Positions 18,161-24,959 of a stretch of 37,231 nucleotides of DNA are shown piece after piece. Each line of letters starts with the position of its first letter. Position 1 is the stretch's first letter. Source of the stretch: Bauldia litoralis (GTDB taxonomy: Bacteria > Pseudomonadota > Alphaproteobacteria > Rhizobiales > Kaistiaceae); contig CAMCWB010000036.1 in the NCBI GenBank assembly GCA_945882315.1, positions 1 to 37,231 of the forward strand. Direction: 5' to 3'. The notes beneath the pieces were generated by a model. That model worked only from the letters and a program-made list of their open reading frames with translations. It made no database searches and was not told the DNA's origin. The position numbers were made by a program, and so were the translations under genes.

Positions 18161-18667
18161 CTATCCGGAATAGTTGCTGCGTTCCCGCCGCCGGTCGTTG
18201 ACCGGCTGGTAGGCCACCCGGCTGTGATACTCACAGTAGGGCAGGCTGTTGAAATTCTTGTGGCCGCAGAAGTAGAAGCCTTCCACGCCGGGGTCGCCGA
18301 GCGGCCATTTGCACATGGTATCGCTGAGTTCCATGAGCGACCGGTTGAGGCTGATCGGCACGACCACGTCTTCCGCCGCGATCGGCGCCGGCAGGCGCCG
18401 GGGCGCCGGTGGGGCATGCGGCTTCAGGACGGTATTGCCCTGAATGAAGGGTCGGGCCGAGGCCCGATGCTGCACCGCCGGTCGCGGCTTGCGCGGCCGC
18501 GGCGTGCTCGACGCCGGCTTGACGCGCCCCGAAAGGCTGAGGCGATGCACCTTGCCGATCACGGCATTGCGCGTCACGCCACCCAACTGGCCGGCGATCT
18601 GGCTTGCGCTCAGACCATCGGCCCACAGCTTCTTAAGCAACTCGACGCGTTCGTCGGTCCAAGACAT
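18161..18667 (-). CDS. gcrA: GcrA cell-cycle regulator
   Basis: GcrA binds sigma-70 holoenzyme and activates promoters carrying CcrM-methylated GANTC sites, setting the timing of cell-cycle genes in alphaproteobacteria. The 168-residue protein has the canonical N terminus SWTDERVELLKKLWADGLSA, SQIAGQLGGVTRNAVIGKVH, a Pro/Arg-rich linker, and the C-terminal sigma-interacting region (CKWPLGDPGVEGFYFCGHKN, YCEYHSRVAYQP). Start 18667 has GGGAAAG six bases upstream and matches the family start; an ATG two codons earlier would sit on the ribosome-binding site. It is divergent from argD. Its upstream region holds an unusual GANTC cluster. Confidence 0.95.
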   Translation of the reverse strand: MSWTDERVELLKKLWADGLSASQIAGQLGGVTRNAVIGKVHRLSLSGRVKPASSTPRPRKPRPAVQHRASARPFIQGNTVLKPHAPPAPRRLPAPIAAEDVVVPISLNRSLMELSDTMCKWPLGDPGVEGFYFCGHKNFNSLPYCEYHSRVAYQPVNDRRRERSNYSG

Positions 18668-18694
18668 CCGCATCTTTCCCGTTTAGGGCGACGG

Positions 18695-18847
18695 GACTCG
18701 CAATCCACCATCGTGCGCTGTCCGTACTCGTGGACGACGCCAAACGCCTGACAATGGAAGTACTGAGGTCCGCCGCGCGATATGTCGTATCTGACAAGCG
18801 GGAAGGTACAATATGCGTGGACTCCCTGACAAGAGTCACAGGGACTC
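18695..18847. promoter_or_regulatory. Cluster of CcrM-type GANTC methylation sites upstream of gcrA
   Basis: GANTC occurs at 18695, 18820, 18833 and 18843, three of them within 28 bp; a fifth is at 18978, inside the argD promoter spacer. The first two of the tight trio form an inverted pair (GACTC-N8-GAGTC). The sites lie 30-180 bp upstream of gcrA, whose product acts through such methylated sites, so methylation-dependent control of gcrA is plausible. Apart from these sites and the argD leader elements, the 18674-18970 stretch holds no gene that I can see. Confidence 0.55.
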
Positions 18848-18970
18848 GCGGGAATAAATCGGATCGTTTTCCCCAAGTGGTGCGTAAATCACAGGCAGGG
18901 TGTGTCCGCGCTGCAACGGCGGCCGGCAATGCGGGGTCGCCGGCGCCCATACTCCCTTCTTCCAGAAGAT

Positions 18971-19001
18971 TTGACAGGAATCCGCCTCGCAATGGTATAA
19001 G
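18971..19001 (+). promoter_or_regulatory. Strong sigma-70-type promoter for argD-argF-hslO
   Basis: A perfect -35 TTGACA (18971-18976) is followed after 18 bases by GTATAA (18995-19000). Transcription would begin near 19007, about 70 bp before argD. A GAATC (CcrM) site lies in the spacer at 18978-18982. Confidence 0.65.
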
Positions 19002-19013
19002 GGCGGCCGACGC

Positions 19014-19042
19014 AAGTGCTGCCCATGGCGGCGCTTTTTTTT
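19014..19042 (+). terminator. Leader hairpin plus T8 run before argD (possible attenuator)
   Basis: Bases 19014-19023 pair with 19027-19036 (two G-U pairs, three-base loop), directly followed by the end of eight T residues (19035-19042). It has the form of an intrinsic terminator and begins only about 7 bases after the predicted start of transcription, 37 bp before the argD ATG. Confidence 0.5.
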
Positions 19043-19078
19043 GATTTCTCGGACAGTCGAAAAGGCCAAGGCGGCGAC

Positions 19079-20269
19079 ATGGACCGCTCACCTCTCTATG
19101 ACACCTTCGCCAGGGCGCCGCTCGCTTTCGCGCGCGGCGAGGGTTGTTGGCTCGAGACCACGGATGGCGACCGCTACCTCGATTTCTCGAGCGGCGTCGC
19201 GGTCAATTCGCTCGGTCACGCCCATCCTAAGCTGGTCGAGGTCCTGTCCGACCAGGCCGGCAAGCTCTGGCATGTGTCGAACCTCTTCCGCATCCCCGAG
19301 CAGGAGAAGCTCGGCCAGCTCCTTTGCGACGCGAGCTTTGCCGACAAGGTCTTCTTCGGCAATTCGGGCGCCGAAGCCGTCGAATGCGCCATCAAGACGG
19401 CGCGCCGCTATCATTTTGTCAGCGGCCATCCCGAGCGCCGCCGCATCATCACCTTTGCCGGCGCCTTCCATGGCCGGACGCTGGCGGCGCTTGCCGCGAC
19501 CGGCAACGCCAAATATCTCGAAGGCTTCGGCCCGACGCCGGACGGTTTCGACCAGATCCCGGTCGTTGACGACCTCAAGGCGGTCGAAGCCGCCATCGGT
19601 CCGGAAACGGCGGCGATCCTGATCGAGCCGATCCAGGGCGAGGGCGGCGTGCGCCTGATCGGCGGCCCGTTCCTCCGCGAGCTTCGCGCTCTCGCCGACC
19701 GGCACGGCCTCCTCCTGATCTTCGATGAGGTCCAGACCGGCATCGGCCGCACCGGAAAGTTCTTCGCCCATGAATGGTCGGGCGTCACGCCCGATATCAT
19801 GGCCGTCGCCAAGGGCATCGGCAGCGGCTTCCCGCTCGGCGCCTGCCTTGCCACGGCCGAGGCCGCCAAGGGCATGACCGCGGGGACGCATGGTTCGACC
19901 TTCGGCGGCAACCCGCTCGCCTGCGCGGTCGGCGCTGCCGTCGTCGAAACCGTCGGCGCGCCCGAATTCCTCGATCATGTCCGCCGCATGGGCCTCTATT
20001 TCAAGCAGCGCCTCGCCGGTATCGTCGACGCCCATCCCGGGGTCGTCTCGGAGGTTCGTGGCGAGGGCCTGCTGGTCGGCGTGCGCTGCGTCCTGCCGGT
20101 CGGCGATGTCATCGCCGCCATGCGCGGCGAAAAGCTTCTCGGCGTCGCGGCCGGCGACAATGTCGTCCGGCTGATCCCGCCGCTCATCGTCACCGAAACC
20201 GAAATCGACGAAGCGATCGCCCGCTTCGACAAGGCGCTCGCCGCCCTCACGCCGGTCAGGGCCGGTTAG
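19079..20269 (+). CDS. argD: Acetylornithine aminotransferase
   Basis: ArgD is a PLP enzyme that transaminates N-acetylglutamate semialdehyde to N-acetylornithine in arginine synthesis, and often also acts in lysine synthesis. The 396-residue protein shows [55 protein letters not shown], the PLP-contact [15 protein letters not shown] and the lysine in [17 protein letters not shown] 19079 gives the usual family N terminus ([16 protein letters not shown]); ATG codons at 19016 and 19025 would run through the leader hairpin. argF follows after 10 bp. Confidence 0.95.
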
Positions 20270-21197: not shown

Positions 21198-22219
21198 CCG
21201 GCGCTTCCGGACTGGCCCCGCCGGCACCGCATGCCGGTGACGATGTCGTCCGCCCCTTCGAGGTGGCGGCGCTCGATCTCCGCGGCCGCGCCATCCAGAT
21301 GGGCGGCGAGCTCGATGCGATCCTCGCCCGCCACGACTATCCGCCGTCGGTGTCGAAGCTGCTCGCCGAGGCGATCGTCCTTGCGGTGCTGCTCGGCTCC
21401 TCGCTGAAATTCGAGGGCAAGTTCATCCTCCAGACCGAGACCGACGGCCCGGTCGACATGCTGGTCGTCGACTTCCGCACGCCCGACGCGGTCCGCGCCT
21501 ATGCCCGCTTCGACCGCGCGCGGGTGGAGGCCGTTCCGGGCGCCGACCAGCGCCAGCTCTTCGGCAACGGCACGCTCGCCATGACCGTCGACCAGGGCGC
21601 CCATACCAGCCGCTACCAGGGCATCGTCACGCTCGACGCCGATACGCTCGAAAGCGCCGCGCACACCTATTTCCGCCAGTCCGAGCAGATCCCGACCCGC
21701 ATCCGCCTCGCCGTCGGCGAGATCCATGTCCGCGGCGCCGATGGAATCATGCGGCATGGCTGGCGGGCGGGCGGCATCCTCGTCCAGTTTCTGCCCGAGG
21801 CATCGGATCGCATGCGCGTCCCCGACCTGCCGGGCGGCGACACGCCGGAGGGCAGCGAGGCCGACGGCGCCAAGGAGGACGATGCCTGGGTCGAGGCCCA
21901 GTCGCTGATCGAGACGGTCGGCGACGACGAACTCACCGATCCGGCGGTGCCGGTCGACACGCTCCTCTTCCGCCTTTTCCACGAGCGCGGCGTCCGCGTC
22001 TTCGCGCCGCTGCCGGTCCACGACCGCTGCTCCTGCTCGCGCGACCGCATCAAGTCGGTCCTGAGCCGCTTCAGCGCCGAGGAAATTTCGGCCAGCGTCG
22101 AGGACGGCAAGATCGCCGTCAAATGCGAATTCTGCGGCACCAACTATGCTTTCGAGCCAGCCGAGATCGCCGCCGCGGCCGCTGAAGACGAGCTGCCAAG
22201 CGATTCAAAAGACTCGTAA
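21194..22219 (+). CDS. hslO: Hsp33-type redox-regulated chaperone HslO
   Basis: Hsp33 is a cytosolic holdase activated by oxidation of a zinc-bound cysteine tetrad. The 341-residue product has [19 protein letters not shown], the core [37 protein letters not shown], and the C-terminal zinc site CSC (about residue 278) and CEFC, spaced as in the family. GTG 21194 overlaps the argF stop by 4 bp; the frame is open further upstream, but that part only shadows argF. The C-terminal tail is acidic and Ala-rich, and ordinary. Confidence 0.93.
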
Positions 22220-22303
22220 ATCCCGCCGCACTTGAATCGCTGCGCGAAGTCCCGGTCTCATCCTGAATCGGAAGATGAAGGAGCAGCCCAGACCGGGCCG
22301 GTT

Positions 22304-23622: not shown

Positions 23623-24828
23623 CTAACCCAGCGCCGCCAAGCCCCGGTCGAGATCGTCGGCGAGATCCTCGACATCCTCGAGTCCGACCGAAAGCCGCAG
23701 CAGCCCCTGCGTGATGCCGAGCTCGCGCCGGGCCTCTTCCGAAAGCCGCTGATGCGTCGTCGTCGAGGGGTGGGTGACGAGGCTCTTGGCGTCGCCGAGA
23801 TTGTTCGAGATCTTGATGATCTCGAAGCCGTTGGCCATCTTGAAGGCCCCCGCCCGGTTGCCCTTCACCTCGAAGGCGATCAGGTTCGACCCGGCCGACA
23901 TCTGCTTCTTGACGATGTCGGCCTGCGGATGGTCGGCGCGGCCAGGATAGACCAGCCGCTTGATCTTCTTGTGGCCGGCGAGATAGTCGGCAAGCTTTGC
24001 CGCCGACGCCGTCTGCCGCTCGACGCGCACGGCCAGCGTCTCCAGCCCCTTCAGCAGCACCCATGCATTGAACGGGCTGAGCGACGGGCCGGTCTGGCGG
24101 AGATAATTGTGGAGATGGTCGGTGACGAATTTTTCGTCCGAGAGGATGACGCCGCCGAGGCAGCGGCCCTGGCCGTCGATATGCTTGGTCGCCGAATAGA
24201 CGACGACGTCGGCGCCGAGCTGCAGCGGCTTCTGCTGGAGCGGCGTCGCGAAGACATTGTCGACGATCAGCCGGGCGCCGGCCTTGTGGGCGATCTCGGC
24301 GACGGCGGCGATGTCGACCACCTCCAGCGTCGGGTTCGTCGGGCTCTCCAGGAAAAGGATCTTGGTGTTCTTGGTCATGGCGTTCCGCCACTGGTCGAGG
24401 TCGGTGCCGTCGACCAGCGTCGAGGTGATGCCGTAGCGCGGCACCAGATCCTCGACGATATAGCGGCAGGAGCCGAACAGCGCCTTCGCCGCCACGACAT
24501 GGTCGCCGGTCTTCAGCGAGCACAGGATCGCCGCCGTCACCGCCGCCATGCCGGTCGCCGCCGAGCGCACCGCGCCGGCCCCTTCGAGAAGCCGCATCCG
24601 CTCCTCGAACATGGCGACCGTCGGGTTGGAGAAGCGCGAATAGATGTAGCCCGGCTCTTCGCCGGAGAAGCGCGCCGCCGCCGCCTCGGCGCTGGCATAG
24701 ACGAAGCCCTGGGTCATGAAGAGCGCTTCCGACGTCTCGCCGAATTGCGAGCGGAGCGTGCCGCCATGCACCAGTTCGGTTGCCGGCCTGAGCCGCTTCG
24801 GGGAGGATTTCTTCGCTTTCTTGGCCAC
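23623..24828 (-). CDS. metZ: O-succinylhomoserine sulfhydrylase MetZ
   Basis: MetZ is a PLP enzyme that makes homocysteine from O-succinylhomoserine and sulfide. The 401-residue protein belongs to the Cys/Met metabolism family: ATELVHGGTLRSQFGETSEA, EPGYIYSRFSNPTVAMFEER, a PLP lysine in YSATKHIDGQGRCLGG, and SLSPFNAWVLLKGLETL. GTG 24828 has AGGAG eight bases upstream; a GTG at 24849 lies in the terminator U-run and is rejected as a start. Expression should be repressed by S-adenosylmethionine through the leader riboswitch (24896-24953) and terminator (24848-24881). Confidence 0.94.
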   Translation of the reverse strand: MAKKAKKSSPKRLRPATELVHGGTLRSQFGETSEALFMTQGFVYASAEAAAARFSGEEPGYIYSRFSNPTVAMFEERMRLLEGAGAVRSAATGMAAVTAAILCSLKTGDHVVAAKALFGSCRYIVEDLVPRYGITSTLVDGTDLDQWRNAMTKNTKILFLESPTNPTLEVVDIAAVAEIAHKAGARLIVDNVFATPLQQKPLQLGADVVVYSATKHIDGQGRCLGGVILSDEKFVTDHLHNYLRQTGPSLSPFNAWVLLKGLETLAVRVERQTASAAKLADYLAGHKKIKRLVYPGRADHPQADIVKKQMSAGSNLIAFEVKGNRAGAFKMANGFEIIKISNNLGDAKSLVTHPSTTTHQRLSEEARRELGITQGLLRLSVGLEDVEDLADDLDRGLAALG

Positions 24829-24847
24829 GAGCCCGTCTCCTTCGCAC

Positions 24848-24881
24848 AAAAAAACCCGGCCGAACGTGCCGGGCCGGGTTT
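24848..24881 (-). terminator. Riboswitch-controlled intrinsic terminator in the metZ leader
   Basis: A 10-bp stem (24852-24861 with 24872-24881; AAACCCGGCC on the minus strand is close to the 5' arm) is followed, on the minus strand, by about seven U residues, then by the metZ ribosome-binding site. It lies about 15 bases downstream of the SAM-II aptamer, so SAM binding probably favours this hairpin. Confidence 0.8.
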
Positions 24882-24895
24882 CAATCCGCTCCGGC

Positions 24896-24953
24896 CTGTT
24901 TAGCGACTTCTTTAACGTGGCTGCAAGCCGGCCGGCTCAAATGACCACGAACG
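24896..24953 (-). ncRNA. SAM-II riboswitch aptamer
   Basis: Read on the minus strand, the leader shows the SAM-II core: CGTGG (P1, fwd 24945-24949), an ATTTGAGCCGG loop, CTTGCAGCCACG closing P1, then GTTAAAGAAGTCGCTAAA for the pseudoknot and binding pocket. SAM-II aptamers control methionine genes in alphaproteobacteria, including metZ. One base of the ATTT-preceding position is C where I recall G in the consensus (TCATTTG against TGATTTG). The aptamer begins almost at the predicted transcription start. Confidence 0.85.
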
Positions 24954-24959
24954 GTTTCC

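Follow-up and report, generated by a model that had tools for sequence, protein, structure and literature searches.

Paired CcrM sites flanking the -35 element of a predicted gcrA promoter, through which chromosome copying probably switches gcrA on

Do the GANTC sites that crowd the intergenic region between gcrA and argD in Bauldia litoralis form a regulatory device, and if so, which gene do they serve and what reads them? GcrA is a global cell-cycle regulator of the Alphaproteobacteria. The stretch of DNA analysed here, which we call the window, comprises 37,231 bp; a sequence-only reading of it had pointed out five GANTC sites within 288 bp, three of which lie within 28 bp (18820-18847), and these positions are exactly as claimed.

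18695, 18820, 18833, 18843 and 18978: starts of the five GANTC sites of the gcrA-argD intergenic region (18695-18982)
18161..18667, minus strand: gcrA coding sequence (sigma-70 cofactor GcrA; PF07750, E 2.9e-53), start set by relatives

The gcrA ORF itself extends to 18673, and relatives start at a methionine equivalent to 18667. The GcrA domain PF07750 spans positions 1-154 of 155, and the match to NF050816 (E 1.9e-49, 168 bits) stays under the 280-bit cut-off of that model. On the plus strand lies argD (19079-20269), with a TIGR00707 match above its cut-off.

How unusual is this crowding? The same reading had expected about one GANTC per 300 bp, which holds for independent bases at 65.2% GC (1 per 311) but not for the window as it is, where the density is lower (67 sites in 37,231 bp, 1 per 556 bp). 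Against the 227 sites expected from dinucleotide shuffles, the 67 observed throughout the window amount to a roughly 3.4-fold deficit, and under-representation, mainly in coding regions, has been reported for Ensifer genomes (PMC8725594). The gcrA-argD group contains both the tightest five and the tightest three sites of the whole window. In simulations that scatter 67 sites at random over the 37,231 bp, a group of five as tight as 288 bp arises somewhere in 8.6% of runs, and a group of three as tight as 28 bp in 5.4%. Dinucleotide shuffling of the 330 nt before gcrA yields at least five GANTC in 6 out of 1000 cases. As such, the clustering statistics alone are mildly unusual, weak and not decisive (P about 0.09 for the window), which is what one could expect if an AT-richer intergenic region simply gathered by chance the sites that coding DNA avoids. 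Because random placement yields five sites within 288 bp this often, the cluster has to be judged by its conservation. It should also be noted that the five sites are not one unit: those at 18820, 18833 and 18843 belong to the gcrA promoter, the one at 18695 to the gcrA leader, and the one at 18978 to the argD promoter.

18833..18837, minus strand: core site 1, GACTC on this strand, directly adjoining the -35 element on its upstream side
18820..18824, minus strand: core site 2, GAGTC on this strand, lying 13 bp from site 1 between the -35 and -10 elements
18843..18847, minus strand: third GANTC near the promoter, 10 bp upstream of site 1
18827..18832, minus strand: predicted gcrA -35 element TTGTCA, between the two core sites

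A block reading GACTC-TTGTCA-NN-GAGTC is common to all 28 aligned gcrA upstream regions of the family (Kaistiaceae, 9 genera), so that TTGTCA stands between the core sites in 28 of 28 loci. The third site is found at exactly 10 bp upstream of site 1 in 16 of these 28. When whole genomes of the family were searched, the pattern GANTCTTGNCANNGANTC was present upstream of gcrA in 28 of 28 and single-copy in 27, the only second copy, away from gcrA, being that of G027; a reversed control pattern gave no match in any of the 28 genomes.

Beyond the family, the comparison covered 62 loci of the order (Rhizobiales), which derive from 63 of 73 other-family genomes after the ten with the weakest or split GcrA matches were excluded and one locus cut by a contig end (L153) was dropped, and 40 loci outside the order, the best 40 of 111 matching genomes (G136, whose match starts at a contig end, was skipped). 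Two weak extra GcrA matches (L111, L112) were excluded as well, and L003 and L107 are apparently one and the same Kaistia hirudinis locus. In addition, 211 loci were anchored at their starts under a looser threshold, at which some anchors may be wrong; L174, L200 and L203 were counted as misses. The looser core GANTC-TTG-N5-GANTC occurs in 20 of the 62 order loci, representing 14 of 45 other families, in none of the 40 loci sampled outside the order, and in 54 of 80 named loci, a set rich in Bradyrhizobium. Of 199 order genomes, 46 carry the stricter GACTCTTG-N5-GAGTC (48 matches, location at gcrA confirmed for part of them only) vs 6 for its reversed control; matches away from gcrA are G058:C52 and one of the two in G061.

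Across nine genera of the family, the 330 nt upstream of gcrA hold 52 GANTC sites vs 12.9 expected, and the 62 order loci hold 199 vs 81.9, with 0 of 100 shuffles as high in either case; the 40 loci outside the order show no excess (48 vs 47.9). Among 16 gapped 5-mer palindromes, GANTC has the highest z-score upstream of gcrA in both the family and the order set (12.1 vs 4.0 for the next palindrome in the nine genera, 15.7 vs 8.8 in all 28 loci and 15.2 vs 6.2 in the order), and other palindromes of the same type also lie above expectation there. Further GANTC sites surround the core at varying distances in the relatives. Chance gathering therefore has to contend with a core held at fixed spacing in 28 of 28 family genomes and with an enrichment over shuffles of the very same gcrA upstream regions, and in our view it is hardly credible. 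Counting sites in related gcrA upstream regions had been proposed as a check by the sequence-only reading, and both the core pair and the leader site are indeed kept among relatives. The cluster is conserved and, in all likelihood, functional.

Would the enzyme that methylates these sites be available? On contig 2 of the same genome (162 contigs) an ORF carries the domains PF01555 (N6_N4_Mtase) and PF18755 (RAMA) of a CcrM-type methylase, and it matches the solved CcrMI chain 6pbd with an E-value of 7.9e-163. Its score against NF050803, the NCBIfam model of CcrM, is 628.7 bits, below the cut-off of 830 bits, which is reached by none of the 61 matches in the 62 order genomes, nor by the Caulobacter control. 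Judged by these matches, CcrM is present in the window's genome. Outside the family, CcrM matches are present in 61 of the 62 genomes of the order, two of them partial (G073, G074), and the sole miss (G052) is a genome that is 67% complete. The absence of CcrM as the cause of missing cores is not supported by these matches. Since 42 of the 62 order loci outside the family are without the core despite the CcrM matches in nearly all of their genomes, a methylation switch of this kind would not be universal.

What, then, do the core sites flank? One lies directly upstream of TTGTCA and the other 2 bp downstream of it, on what we predict to be the gcrA promoter.

18803..18808, minus strand: predicted gcrA -10 element TACCTT (TANNNT), 18 bp after TTGTCA
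18796, minus strand: predicted gcrA transcription start, 7 nt after the -10 element and 129 nt before the ATG
18866..18876, minus strand: conserved box TTGGGGAAAAC, some 30 bp further upstream than core site 1

A TANNNT follows TTGNNN by 17 or 18 bp in 92 of 102 core loci; in the other 10 it was not found at 15-20 bp. It should be taken into account that the wider order keeps only the TTG of the -35 element, and that there this TTG is itself part of the search pattern. In three loci (L038, L045, L072) the second core site lies 15 bp from the first instead of 13, and the offset of TANNNT is unchanged, as if the methylation site moved independently of the promoter. Seven nucleotides is a usual distance between a -10 element and a transcription start. 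In S. meliloti the gcrA start has been mapped at -122 (PMC4414408), and the 7-nt rule gives -122 in four of seven Rhizobium-type loci and -125, -127 and -128 in the other three; it gives -124 in L185, and L187 and L204 are without a TANNNT there. Since the distance was fixed with the published start known, this agreement is a consistency check and not an independent prediction. A scan of 18600-19150 for promoters of the E. coli consensus found none, and the gcrA promoter is therefore not of the strict E. coli type. Taken together, the core appears from sequence to be the -35 region of the predicted gcrA promoter, consistent with the published S. meliloti start.

As for the box upstream of the core, TGGGGAAA turns up at a distance of up to 400 nt from gcrA in 24 of 28 loci of the family; among other loci of the order it does so in 65 of 143, and outside the order in 1 of 40. 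The complement of TTGGGGAAAAC presumably resembles weak DnaA boxes; of the DnaA- and CtrA-type boxes looked for in the 28 family loci, TTWTNCACA and TTAA-N7-TTAA were both found in 0 of 28. TTAA-N6-TTAA occurs in 13 of 28 and is absent from the window.

The conservation extends into the gcrA leader, where a further methylation site is kept.

18695..18699, minus strand: GANTC of the leader, some 100 nt past the predicted start

All 28 family loci have a GANTC at -20 to -75 of the ATG, as do 40 of the 62 loci of the order, from 30 of 45 families, and 4 of 40 loci outside the order. When the family loci are aligned, the leader site of the window matches the second site of the GGANTCNGANTC pair of some relatives, the first of which reads GGATTG in the window. 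In a set of 71 loci (the 62 of the order plus one per genus of the family), the GGANTCNGANTC pair, 6 bp apart, occurs in 11, and GGATTC is found in the leader region of 30. Among the one-letter departures from GGATTC, which come from related loci and are thus not independent, 14 of 24 fall at the N position, and for this reason it is the methylation site that is suggested to be what is kept. The same departures make an RNA motif less likely; GGAG-rich leaders could add some of these departures. A conserved RNA fold of the leader was rejected too: the leader of the window folds only slightly better than its shuffles (z -1.36, 20 of 200 as good), and at gathering scores no Rfam family was found in it. 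Of a different kind are the first bases of the predicted gcrA mRNA, GTCAGATACGACATATCG (18778-18796, minus strand), which an alignment of 25 of the 28 family loci shows to be shared by much of the family, and which can fold into a small hairpin. For S. meliloti, pairing of the sRNA EcpR1 is reported at 13 nt downstream of the gcrA start (PMC4414408).

The symmetry of the core invites another explanation, in which the inverted repeat GACTC..GAGTC bracketing TTG serves mainly as an operator for some protein that is not GcrA, with methylation being secondary. In 99 distinct cores the N positions are strongly biased (C 98%, G 88%), which is needless for a pure methylation site, and an operator for another protein can be entertained because of this bias. 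The bias may, however, merely reflect the constraints of the -35 element and its flanks. Moreover, an operator does not account for the additional sites at variable distances around the core, for a leader site that departs mainly at N, or for GANTC being the palindrome with the top z-score. We therefore consider an operator of this sort quite unlikely.

The nearest experimental precedent comes from A. tumefaciens. According to the available text of PMC11514494, six GANTC sites lie in the 250 bp upstream of gcrA in this species, its gcrA promoter is more active in CcrM-depleted cells, and when placed in E. coli it is less active with active CcrM than with an inactive variant; the authors propose that repression by methylation is relieved by hemimethylation after passage of the fork. 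The single-site mutations described in that text concern promoters other than gcrA (PMC11514494). Comparable numbers of sites were found in the 250 nt before gcrA of our seven Rhizobium-type loci (six in four, five in three). The conserved bracket around the -35 element gives the A. tumefaciens proposal an anatomical target. That gcrA transcription could be linked to CcrM methylation and replication, as the sequence-only reading had suggested, is supported by the conservation of the sites together with the lower activity of the methylated A. tumefaciens promoter (PMC11514494).

We therefore put at roughly 0.6 the probability that the cluster is a gcrA promoter built as a CcrM methylation switch, with the copying of the chromosome itself probably switching gcrA on through the methylation sites flanking the -35 element. 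What was observed here is that the sites exist, that they fall on a promoter-like sequence kept in relatives, that they are themselves conserved, and that the genome has CcrM. In the model, CcrM would fully methylate both of the GANTC sites that, 13 bp apart, bracket the -35 element, and the m6A marks, at the edge of the contact made by sigma region 4 and in the spacer, would bring promoter activity down. Passage of the fork through gcrA would leave the sites hemimethylated and the promoter more active, so that GcrA would be made in early or middle S phase; late in the cycle, remethylation by CcrM would close the promoter again. The bracketing pair would thus be the part that senses methylation, and sigma binding the step that is affected. 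For the direction of the effect the model relies on A. tumefaciens, and by analogy the sign of the methylation effect may be the same in the window's organism.

Could GcrA itself be the reader of these sites? Under such autoregulation, GcrA and sigma-70 at methylated GANTC would activate or repress the gcrA promoter in a feedback timed by replication. The idea is kept in play since GcrA binding is stimulated by GANTC methylation and the S. meliloti and B. abortus proteins likewise bind methylated GANTC better in vitro (PMC3667746). Furthermore, ChIP peaks of B. abortus GcrA are 4.4- to 4.7-fold richer in GANTC (PMC6813329), and one core site does sit in the gcrA -35/-10 spacer. When the core sites are held against the extended GcrA motif, however, which has been given as YGAKTCG (PMC7987155) and as YGAKTCK (in the part of PMC8725594 available), none of the 56 core-pair sites of the 28 family loci and none of the five window sites fit either form. 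Elsewhere upstream, 18 of the 28 family loci do carry a site fitting YGAKTCG, which in most Kaistia-type loci lies some 235 nt ahead of the ATG, and the motif may vary among species (PMC8725594). A review places GcrA on sigma domain 2 and describes it as an activator at methylated promoters (PMC7403470). Against autoregulation, methylation affects the A. tumefaciens promoter in E. coli too, where alphaproteobacterial regulators are absent (PMC11514494), and the main texts of PMC7987155 and PMC3667746 make no mention of the gcrA promoter, of GcrA's own promoter or of autoregulation. On balance, control of gcrA by its own product is an unlikely account of the cluster.

If the methylation switch is pressed further, GACTC-TTG-N5-GAGTC would be a dedicated element for reading methylation, almost private to gcrA, in which the sigma factor itself reads the m6A of the two sites. 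The gene would then sense the passing fork directly, without any reader protein; this arrangement would be retained across much of one order, and the transcribed leader would add a second conserved methylation site. For this stronger form the odds are somewhat unfavourable, and we advance it tentatively.

The gene rsmG is a marker of the replication origin, and in ten single-contig genomes plus G084 gcrA lies at most 0.21 replicon lengths from it in 10 of 11 cases, the exception being G076 (0.45). Because of this proximity in 10 of 11 genomes, the timing of hemimethylation mostly fits the map position. According to a survey, gcrA mostly sits halfway between origin and terminus, and the order tends the same way (PMC8116508). 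In C. crescentus, a GANTC inside the -35/-10 spacer goes with activation at 40-60 min, in mid cycle, and a GANTC outside the spacer with minimal levels at that time (PMC4287350). Since the core has one site inside the spacer and one outside, this rule predicts nothing clear for gcrA.

Methylation sites that overlap core promoter elements are known from elsewhere. In the transposase promoter pIN of IS10 a Dam site, GATC, is located at the -10 element; full methylation lowers the activity of this promoter, and a burst occurs on hemimethylated DNA. What it shares with the proposed gcrA switch is repression by full methylation at a core promoter element; it differs in that Dam and GATC act at the -10 element of a transposase gene, instead of CcrM and GANTC around the -35 element of a cell-cycle gene. 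Another case is P1 of C. crescentus ctrA, likewise a promoter of a cell-cycle regulator that requires GANTC hemimethylation and is active after the fork, but one that is activated by GcrA and for which no -35 bracket is described in the available text (PMC8116508). The closest relative is the A. tumefaciens gcrA promoter PG, which shares with the window the gene, a related bacterium and a dense GANTC cluster; in the text at hand, neither a mapping of its sites onto the -35 and -10 elements nor an order-wide conservation is reported (PMC11514494). In 2010, Brilli et al. tallied the GANTC sites that precede cell-cycle genes and stated that control by methylation, though possible, was not derivable (PMC2877005). 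Neither the -35 bracket nor its conservation is described in those parts of the literature that our searches covered. The gcrA arrangement is of a regulatory type already published for one species, and its anatomy is unusually clear here. If the methylation switch holds true, and with the same geometry in many families of the order, the Agrobacterium observation would turn into a general rule with a target both precise and mutable, namely two sites around one hexamer, and the reading of methylation marks by the polymerase without a reader protein would become directly testable. It would also set this group apart from the Caulobacter-like bacteria, in which DnaA and CtrA are described as controlling gcrA (PMC2877005).

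On the other side of the intergenic region the picture is different.

18971..19000, plus strand: predicted argD promoter TTGACA-N19-TATAA, containing the fifth GANTC (18978-18982)

An argD promoter was located in 25 of the 28 family loci, and only in 1 of these 25, that of the window alone, does it contain a GANTC. The sequence-only reading had raised the possibility that this site ties argD to the cell cycle; because the site is not conserved, such control is unsupported, and the GANTC at 18978 is best read as a chance occurrence. A terminator-like hairpin followed by a run of T lies at 19014-19036 on the plus strand, between the argD promoter and the argD start, and could be an argD attenuator. 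In several relatives (e.g. L086, L088 and L089) a similar hairpin with a run of A is found on the gcrA strand.

Two further observations concern other parts of the window. A second GANTC cluster, of four sites in 68 bp (22202-22269), lies at the 3' end of, and just past, an ORF ending at 22219 that we take to be probably hslO. Finally, a SAM_alpha riboswitch (RF00521, 78.8 bits) at 24879-24958 on the minus strand is located directly upstream of a minus-strand ORF (23623-24849), presumably a transsulfuration-type enzyme, which is an ordinary arrangement.
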